Source: Paracoccaceae bacterium
GTDB taxonomy: Bacteria > Pseudomonadota > Alphaproteobacteria > Rhodobacterales > Rhodobacteraceae
Direction of reading: 5' to 3'
DNA length: 41,067 bases
Assembly (NCBI GenBank): GCA_030625695.1
Contig: DAOUQK010000003.1
Coordinates: 1-41,067 of the forward strand
A model generated the notes under the pieces. It made no database searches. It saw nothing but the letters and a program-made list of their open reading frames with translations, and had not been told where the DNA came from. The position numbers and the translations under genes were made by a program. Below, one piece after another: positions 1,240 through 30,551 of the stretch. The stretch's first letter is position 1. Each line of letters opens with the position of its first letter.

Positions 1240-1292
1240 TGCAGCGTTTCGCACTCGCATTGGATCACTGCATCGCTTCGAGAGGCGAGGCA

Positions 1293-1312
1293 GTGTTTGG
1301 TGAGACAAACAC
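1293..1312. promoter_or_regulatory. Perfect 7-bp dyad GTGTTTG-N6-CAAACAC in the slt/dapA divergent intergenic region
   Basis: Direct reading: gtgtttg gtgaga caaacac. Confidence 0.3.
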
Positions 1313-1497
1313 GTTCGCTGGTCAAAGCGATTCAATATGAACGTGAAACGCATTTACTTGCAATTCCCGGGCAACAACGGCTAGAGCCTTTGACGATACC
1401 CTGTGTCAGCCCGGATCGAAACAACAATTTCCGTGCGCCTCAGGGATTCAGCGGCAAATTGCCCGCATTCGAAACGTCAAAACTAAGGATTTACCCC

Positions 1498-10893: not shown

Positions 10894-11009
10894 TAGAGCG
10901 AAACCAATCTAATCAGAGTCATGCATTCATCCTCCAGCCCGAGGCAGCGTTTTCTTTTCCAAACGCGTTCGGGCCGGAGAGTGAATTCAATTGGATTGGA
11001 TTCGCTCTA
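10894..11009. mobile_element. 116-bp palindromic MITE-like element, copy 1 (TAGAGCG...CGCTCTA)
   Basis: Terminal inverted repeats TAGAGCGAAaCCAAT/ATTGGaTTCGCTCTA; reverse complement aligns without gaps to copy 2 at 22920-23035 (about 84/116 identical by hand count). Confidence 0.75.
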
Positions 11010-11088: not shown

Positions 11089-11126
11089 GCGAAGAAAGCC
11101 ATTCATGGCTTGATGAGCGGCCCCTC
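11089..11126 (-). terminator. Intrinsic terminator module downstream of tauR (repeated after gshA)
   Basis: Minus strand GAGGGGCCGCTCATCAAGCCATGAATGGCTTTCTTCGC; AAGCCA-TGAA-TGGCTT stem followed by T-rich tail. Confidence 0.75.
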
Positions 11127-19737: not shown

Positions 19738-19909
19738 CAAAATGGCGAATACCCGAAAAACTAACGGAAATTTCGACCTCGGGGAAAGTTATCATCAGTG
19801 TTATCCACAGAAACGGTGGATTTGTTTTCTCTTGATTACTGTCCGCAAATGATTGCAGCCCGCGCCAGAGAATCATATCCCTGTGATATGAACGATCAGC
19901 CAGTCGGGC

Positions 19910-19978
19910 GTAGGGTGGGCAGTTCTGCCCACCGTTCCGGTTGATCGTAAAGAAGGTGGGCAAAACTGCCCACCCTAC
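19910..19978. repeat. REPIN-like element B: inverted pair of GTAG-headed REP hairpins
   Basis: GTAGggtgggcagttctgcccacc (19910-19933) / ggtgggcaaaactgcccaccCTAC (19955-19978); arms identical except one base. Confidence 0.85.
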
Positions 19979-20022
19979 GGGCCGGTGACAGGTCATTCAT
20001 TAGGTGAATTGGGTTCAGAGAT

Positions 20023-22011: not shown

Positions 22012-22677
22012 ATGAGATGGAATCTTCCCAATATCCTGACGCTTTCGCGTCTGTTTGCGGCCCCCGGGCTGGCGGTGATGTTCCTTTATTTCACCAGACC
22101 ATATGCCGATTGGTTTGCCCTGAGCCTGTTTGTCATTGCCTCTCTGACCGATTGGCTTGACGGCTATCTGGCGCGGGCCTGGAAACAGGAAACCAAACTG
22201 GGCACGATGCTGGACCCGATTGCCGACAAGGCGATGGTGATTATTGCACTGATGGTGATCGTCGGCTTTTCGTCGATGTCACCCTGGCTGGTCCTGCCGG
22301 CCACGTTCATTCTGTTTCGCGAAGTGTTTGTTTCGGGCCTGCGAGAATACCTTGGCGATACGGCTGGCACGTTGAAGGTGACAGCATTGGCCAAGTGGAA
22401 AACCACGGCGCAGATGGTGGCCATTGCCGTGTTGTTCGCCCAGGGCGTGTTTGAGCATTATCTGGGCATGTCGATCATCGGCATGGACAATGAACTGGTG
22501 GGGCAAATCCTGAACGGAGAAGTTGAGGACCTGCATGGATTGCACTGGAAACTGGCCGGGATGGACTGGACCGGGCGGATTGGTCTTTGGTTGTTGTGGC
22601 TTGCGGCGGCGCTGACGCTGATCACCGGATGGGATTACCTGCGCAAAGCGATGCCGTATCTGAGGGAAACATCATAA
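22012..22677 (+). CDS. pgsA: CDP-diacylglycerol-glycerol-3-phosphate 3-phosphatidyltransferase
   Basis: MRWNLPNILTLSRLFAAPGLAV...LTDWLDGYLARAWKQETKLGTMLDPIADK (CDP-alcohol phosphotransferase motif). Confidence 0.95.
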   Translation: MRWNLPNILTLSRLFAAPGLAVMFLYFTRPYADWFALSLFVIASLTDWLDGYLARAWKQETKLGTMLDPIADKAMVIIALMVIVGFSSMSPWLVLPATFILFREVFVSGLREYLGDTAGTLKVTALAKWKTTAQMVAIAVLFAQGVFEHYLGMSIIGMDNELVGQILNGEVEDLHGLHWKLAGMDWTGRIGLWLLWLAAALTLITGWDYLRKAMPYLRETS

Positions 22678-22922
22678 TGGATGTATTGTATTTTGCCTGG
22701 GTCCGCGAACGTATCGGCCTGCCCAAAGAGCGAATCGATACCAGTGCTGCAACCGTGACCGCCCTGGTTGATGAATTGCGCGCGCGCGAAGAACGCTATG
22801 CCGCTGCGTTTGCCGATCTCAGCGCGTTGCGTGTGGCGGTTGATCAGGAGTTGGTCGATTTTGACGCGCCATTGGCAGGCGCGCGCGAAGTGGCGTTTTT
22901 CCCGCCGATGACGGGCGGCTAG
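22677..22922 (+). CDS. moaD: Molybdopterin synthase small subunit
   Basis: MDVLYFAWVRERIG...VAFFPPMTGG with C-terminal GG; overlaps pgsA stop (TAATG). Confidence 0.93.
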   Translation: MDVLYFAWVRERIGLPKERIDTSAATVTALVDELRAREERYAAAFADLSALRVAVDQELVDFDAPLAGAREVAFFPPMTGG

Positions 22923-23035
22923 AGCGTGTCCAACAAACATGAATTCAGTCAGCCGCCCGAACGCGTTATGCTTTGCAAACCCTGCCTCGGGCGGCTGACT
23001 GAATACATGAGCCCTGTTAGATTGGATACGCTCTA
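22920..23035. mobile_element. 116-bp palindromic MITE-like element, copy 2, between moaD and moaE
   Basis: TAGAGCG...CGCTCTA; internal perfect 14-bp stem AGTCAGCCGCCCGA/TCGGGCGGCTGACT; homologous to 10894-11009 (reverse complement). Confidence 0.8.
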
Positions 23036-23036
23036 A

Positions 23037-23483
23037 ATGCGGATTGTGGTTCAGGAGGCCGGGTTTGACGCCGGTCAGGAACTGACCCGGTTCAGTGCGG
23101 CTGATCCTGGTATTGGTGCGATTGTCAGCTTTACCGGCGTGGTGCGCGACACCGCCGAAGGCACGCTTGATGTGATGCAGATCGAACATTACCCCGGCAT
23201 GACCGAGGCCGCATTGACCAAGATCGCACAAGAGGCAATGACCCGCTGGGCATTGGGCGATATCCTGGTGATCCACCGGTTCGGACGGCTGGCCCCGGGG
23301 GATCAGATCATGATGGTGGCCACGACATCGGCGCACCGAAAGGACGCTTTTGAAGCGGCGGAATACCTGATGGATTACCTTAAATCCCGCGCGCCATTCT
23401 GGAAGAAAGAGATTCTGCGCGATGGAGCGCACTGGGTTGCCGCGAGGGACGAAGACGAAGATGCGTTGGGGCGCTGGGACTGA
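23037..23483 (+). CDS. moaE: Molybdopterin synthase catalytic subunit
   Basis: IGAIVSFTGVVRDTAEGTLDVMQIEHYPGMTEAALTKI...VIHRFGRLAPGDQIMMVATTSAHRKDAFEAAEYLMDYLKSRAPFWKKE. Confidence 0.96.
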   Translation: MRIVVQEAGFDAGQELTRFSAADPGIGAIVSFTGVVRDTAEGTLDVMQIEHYPGMTEAALTKIAQEAMTRWALGDILVIHRFGRLAPGDQIMMVATTSAHRKDAFEAAEYLMDYLKSRAPFWKKEILRDGAHWVAARDEDEDALGRWD

Positions 23484-30513: not shown

Positions 30514-30551
30514 GAGGGGCCGCTCCTCAAGCCCTGACGGGCTTTCTTCGC
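30514..30551 (+). terminator. Intrinsic terminator module downstream of gshA (same family as 11089-11126)
   Basis: GAGGGGCCGCTCCTCAAGCCCTGACGGGCTTTCTTCGC; AAGCCC-TGAC-GGGCTT stem with T-rich tail. Confidence 0.75.

Follow-up and report, generated by a model that had tools for sequence, protein, structure and literature searches.

We analysed a window of 41,067 nucleotides from the genome of a Paracoccaceae bacterium (G000), in which the gap between the genes moaD and moaE is filled by a 116-nt hairpin element. The features of this junction, together with the related copies discussed below, are collected in Table 1. The moaD reading ends ...ATG ACG GGC GGC TAG with its last base at 22922, and direct reading bears out the preliminary description, in which the TAG of the element (22920-22922) was taken as the moaD stop codon. 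At the opposite side, the 3' edge CTCTA extends to 23035 and is followed by a single A (23036) and the moaE ATG (from 23037), so that the element does end one nucleotide from the start codon, as was also proposed. The terminal Gly-Gly, described as essential and intact, is indeed in place, the MoaD C-terminus being PMTGG, the same as in relatives. The whole element forms one hairpin, its two ends pairing to close it; the folding energy at this locus is -63.2 kcal/mol, compared with -27.9 in shuffles (z -9.3). As a candidate intrinsic terminator the hairpin lacks a T run on its 3' side, where AATGCGG is found instead, and a search of Rfam 15 with the hairpin gave no RNA family above the gathering threshold.

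Table 1. Features of the moaD-moaE junction and copies of the hairpin family in the window and on plasmids
Feature	Record	Positions	Strand	Remarks
moaD	window	22677..22922	+	81 aa, ends MTGG
Hairpin element (IS630-type miniature element, very probable assignment)	window	22920..23035	+	116 nt, moaD-moaE gap; covariance-model E about 1e-30
TAG, element bases 1-3	window	22920..22922	+	serves as moaD stop codon
Left target-site TA copy, putative	window	22920..22922	+	TA of the moaD-stop TAG; family-wide Y-TA...TA-R flanks
Left terminal arm	window	22920..22935	+	TAGAGCGTGTCCAACA
Covarying inner stem, 5' strand	window	22943..22960	+	
Near-invariant core	window	22957..22990	+	CCGAACGCGTT...GCAAACCCTGCCTCGG; conserved on plasmids too
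Covarying inner stem, 3' strand	window	22987..23004	+	
Right terminal arm	window	23020..23035	+	pairs with left arm
Right copy of putative TA target-site duplication	window	23034..23035	+	followed by A and moaE ATG
moaE	window	23037..23483	+	148 aa
Second window copy	window	10894..11009	-	72-74% identical to the moaD-moaE copy
Third window copy	window	1240..1355	-	diverged; E 7.9e-15
virB2-virB3 copy	L289	1165-1280		
virB2-virB3 copy	L291	1165-1280		
virB2-virB3 copy	L292	979-1094		
virB2-virB3 copy	L293	283-399		
virB2-virB3 copy	L294	283-399		
virB2-virB3 copy	L297	284-399		
virB2-virB3 copy	L300	284-398		
virB2-virB3 copy	L303	283-399		
virB2-virB3 copy	L307	283-399		

The hairpin belongs to a dispersed family. 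Using a covariance model (R1) built from an alignment of 20 full copies, we identified about 30-32 copies in G000, about 30 in the nearest sister species (G002), 7 matches in G001 and no copy in G003. Three copies lie in the window, and the earlier statement that the same element is repeated there thus stands (BLAST E 3.9e-13 for the second copy). The length of the family is nearly constant, mostly 113-116 nt. The family was present in 18 of 150 Rhodobacteraceae genomes, several of them with more than 15 copies, and the class-wide search outside Rhodobacteraceae yielded a single marginal match; literature searches gave nothing specific for repeats of this kind in Rhodobacteraceae or Roseobacter. 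Among 81 aligned copies, standard pairs account for 92.7% of pair cells, the outer helix formed by the terminal inverted repeats is 92.8% paired, and changes on both sides occur in 25 of the 30 stem pairs. There are 497 double-change cells, compared with 158 in shuffles and 68-124 with the partner slid. The core CCGAACGCGTT...GCAAACnCTGCCTCGG is near-invariant across the family, with positions A44 and G69 constant in all 81 copies. Shorter forms also occur: a short palindrome AGCGTGTCCAATCCAAATTGCATTGGACACACTCTAA, apparently an internally deleted derivative, adjoins a full copy at positions 1501-1616 of L161, and R1 gives several matches of 39-59 nt in G002.

The flanks of the copies are those of a transposed element. 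Across 87 copies, the base preceding the 5' TA is C or T in 79 of 86 cases, and the base following the 3' TA is A or G in 83 of 87. By searching with joined flanks, we located empty sites in G002, G003 or G001 for at least seven G000 copies, with the ends of the flanking proteins unchanged; for example, CATCTAACCCGAAGG in G002 corresponds to CATCTA[element]ACCTGAAGG in G000. The description of the element as an inserted repeat is accordingly upheld by about 30 dispersed copies and by known empty sites. Only two intact insertions are common to G000 and G002 by orthology, and at a further locus (L235) the sister species keeps an internally deleted remnant of about 36 nt of the second window copy; because just these two intact sites and one deleted derivative are shared, copies have turned over since the two species split.

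Following relatives of an IS630 transposase, we found complete elements, each about 1,057 bp long, in other genera (L274 and L276); the ends of these elements are flanked by TA. These ends (e.g., TAGAGCGTGTCGCGTTTAATTGG and TAGAGCGTGTCGCTCCTGATCAGATTCAGG) match the 5' and 3' arms of the hairpin in 20-22 of 24 nt, as compared with 18 of 24 at most for random TAR sites of the window, and the first 11 nt of the left arm at moaD-moaE, TAGAGCGTGTC, are identical to the ends of the L276 element. The IS630 loci within G000 and G002 had no usable ends, no intact IS630 element with exact hairpin ends was found in G000, and a pattern search of copy-rich genomes for paired ends 1 kb apart gave no autonomous element. 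A recognisable IS630 transposase is absent from three copy-rich genomes (G006, which is complete, G031 and G091), so the mobilising transposase is not always present. Taken together, the sequence comparisons make it very probable that the family consists of non-autonomous miniature palindromes of the IS630/Tc1-mariner type, and that the insertion of one of them at a TA rebuilt the moaD stop codon and left the two proteins unchanged. The constant length and near-invariant core nevertheless exceed the needs of a plain deletion derivative.

The core also allowed us to reach roseobacter plasmids by search. In nine aligned records, from hosts including Sulfitobacter, Phaeobacter, Paracoccus, Leisingera, and Ruegeria, type IV secretion operons have a member of the hairpin family filling the junction between virB2 and virB3 (R1 E 3e-7 to 6e-15), while in 10 other examined plasmid records this junction is 15 nt long. 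In P. inhibens, the junction is filled on pP24_b and empty on pP88_d. Identity among the plasmid copies is 91-100% in the core and mostly 82-96% in the flanking genes; most comparisons give 45-70% identity for the arms, which are still paired, and more within close groups, with 13 pairs changed on both sides. The ends of these copies are eroded, and the conservation of the core is therefore hard to attribute to transposition. Among our observations, this one hints most strongly at a function that has been retained; alternatively, new copies may have replaced older ones repeatedly. In addition, a 112-nt hairpin with similar arms occupies the virB2-virB3 gap at positions 289-400 of L308 (Yoonia vestfoldensis pSMR4r-1), where neither the conserved core nor an R1 match was found.

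These observations bear on a second reading, which we consider unlikely: that the hairpin is a functional intercistronic RNA, spread by transposition and retained since the hairpin in the transcript adjusts operon expression, either by processing or stabilising the mRNA or by bringing a downstream start to the upstream stop or Shine-Dalgarno sequence. The near-invariant core, its preservation on the plasmids against diverged arms, and the paired changes at virB2-virB3 and in the moaD-moaE orthologue of G002 speak for such a role. So does a TGTCC subfamily, which includes the moaD-moaE copy and whose four independent sites all lie 1-4 nt before an ATG; an ATG follows at this distance in only 3 of 82 other copies, in a post hoc comparison with small numbers. 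A copy between purH and lspA has AGGAGA just before and an ATG just after the element, and its hairpin could conceivably bridge the two, which we treat as a lead only. There is a precedent in phage T4, where genes 38 and 25 bridge a split ribosome-binding site by a hairpin (PMC3014915).

The distribution of the copies, however, argues against an RNA role. Their orientation to transcription shows no preference (24:21), and, once the innermost pairs are set aside, A-C mismatches (89) are more numerous than G-U pairs (51) on the modelled strand. Of 84 copies, 33 lie between convergent genes, and the insertions are mostly unshared between sister species. Template switching from arm to arm is another possible source of covariation in palindromes, and the covariation may thus reflect either this process or selection on the hairpin. 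A strand-specific RNA, first suggested by the strong covariation, was unsupported by the G-U/A-C comparison and the orientation counts. Since there is no preference for strand or orientation, a DNA element is favoured, with a retained RNA role possible. The conserved core suggests that a copy may at times come to serve a function in its host operon. A more specific version, rather unlikely but conceivable, is that the core is a functional module that is carried by IS630-type ends and recognised either in its RNA form or by a protein; by bridging to the next gene or tuning its expression, it would make insertions at tight operon junctions tolerable or useful, and it would have been domesticated at virB2-virB3 of roseobacter plasmids.

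The gene context of the copies, obtained by running a simple gene caller based on codon usage over loci of 3 kb, revealed a frequent overlap with stop codons. At least one end of the hairpin coincides exactly with the stop codon of a flanking gene in 39 of 87 copies, and both ends do so in five; the stop is supplied by either end equally (22:22). No more than 6 of 84 copies lie between divergent genes. Stop codons make up 35 of 270 (13%) non-disrupting YTAR sites, and the excess among the copies (p 3e-13) would be expected if the transposase actively targeted stop codons and the overlap were its targeting mechanism. We find this improbable, because among YTAR sites no more than 60 nt from gene 3' ends the excess falls to 1.9-fold (p 0.03), and the YTAR preference combined with purging from genes and promoters covers most of the pattern. 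Active targeting was accordingly dropped as the main cause, and the rebuilding of stop codons is a consequence of TA targeting. We likewise dropped the idea that the element truncated its flanking genes, as element-free orthologues stop at the same codon.

At moaD-moaE itself, other Rhodobacteraceae loci have 0-30 nt, mostly fewer than 10, between the moaD stop and the moaE start, and are free of the element. In G002, the nearest sister species, the element occupies this junction too, and the moaD stop is TGA; the two elements are 86% identical and their flanks 88-90%, and between the elements three stem pairs have changed on both sides while two are broken. Within the genus, G001 gave no match for this junction and the G003 contig begins inside moaE, and the empty junctions come from other Rhodobacteraceae genera. 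The comparison of sister junctions proposed in the preliminary description thus had a divided outcome, other genera being empty and the nearest sister already filled. An identical ancestral spacer with no empty site, named there as the contrary finding, is not what the other genera have. The insertion is thus derived within Rhodobacteraceae, yet older than the split of G000 and G002, because G002 shares the element. That the hairpin is simply the ancestral moaD-moaE spacer of this lineage, with no insertion, might be argued from the filled junction of G002 but is scarcely credible given about 30 dispersed copies in the genome, TA-flanked empty sites at other loci, and outgroup junctions with near-zero spacing that already contradict it.

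Removing the element and one TA would give the empty site GGC TAA ATG. The earlier suggestion that the element replaced a spacer including the moaE Shine-Dalgarno sequence does not agree with the relatives: because they are nearly spacerless, probably no such sequence was lost. Given their near-zero spacing, the moaE start probably relied on translational coupling to moaD before the insertion, which would have parted the two genes from touching to 113 nt and abolished their start-stop contact.

The ends, flanks and empty sites suggest the following course for a miniature element of the IS630 type. A transposase acting in trans would recognise the hairpin ends and insert the element at a YTAR target with duplication of the TA. 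At moaD-moaE, the element would have entered at the TA of a TAA stop codon that adjoined the moaE ATG without a gap. Because the element starts with G after the duplicated TA, the in-frame stop would be regenerated as TAG, with MoaD and MoaE unaltered; with both proteins unchanged, the insertion could be tolerated and passed down to at least two species. The hairpin would then be kept up by selection or by arm-to-arm copying, and the predicted effect on moaE translation is probably modest or bridged by the hairpin.

The analysis defines a mobile hairpin family in Rhodobacteraceae and ties it to a probable IS630 mobiliser; the family of miniature elements is new, whereas the transposon family type is already known. 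It also illustrates how even the tightest operon junctions can admit an element, with both proteins left unbroken, when the element rebuilds the stop codon that it struck. Plasmids of Phaeobacter, Sulfitobacter, Mameliella, and others, some with a filled and some with an empty virB2-virB3 junction, make it directly testable whether such a passenger became a regulator. The window contains other repeats as well. A short repeat GCGAAGAAAGCCATTCATGGCTTGATGAGCGGCCCC occurs at 11089-11126 and 30514-30551, and pieces of it match many places in G000 and G002 (query 1300-1332). An inverted repeat with GTAGGGTGGGCAGTT...AACTGCCCACCCTAC lies at 19888-20000, and similar GTAGGGTGGG repeats are found in the flanks of other loci.

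Several known systems, compared here by description, resemble the Rhodobacteraceae hairpin. The T4 genes 38 and 25 show that a hairpin between a Shine-Dalgarno sequence and an AUG could join them, as might be the case for the purH-lspA copy, although the T4 spacers of 22-27 nt (PMC3014915) are far smaller than the 116 nt here. The Caulobacter CerM-associated intergenic repeats (CIR) are likewise alphaproteobacterial, about 110 bp long and terminated by TA (PMC2229807), but they are two-armed with GANTC in the loop, whereas our element is one long hairpin lacking the two-armed RNA structure; 58 of 87 copies contain GANTC, but it lies outside the terminal loop, at position 22 or 88-89, and is absent from the moaD-moaE copy. 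The Correia/NEMIS elements of Neisseria are TA-flanked miniature palindromes as well, and are cleaved as mRNA hairpins (PMC2229807), RNA processing being a feature of the Neisseria elements. The 127-bp enterobacterial palindrome ERIC/IRU shares the stable hairpin, the approximately constant size, 5'-TA-3' termini, target-site duplication, and co-transcription within operons (PMC2229807); our family differs in being confined to Rhodobacteraceae, apart from one marginal match, and in its demonstrated IS630-type ends. The 107-bp RUP element of Streptococcus pneumoniae, for which IS630-Spn1 is the proposed mover, is similar in its size, in its TA target and intergenic dispersal, and in having ends that match those of an IS630-family element (PMC2229807). 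RUP belongs to another lineage, and the Rhodobacteraceae hairpin is distinguished from it by its covariation, its near-invariant core, and its frequent location on stop codons.
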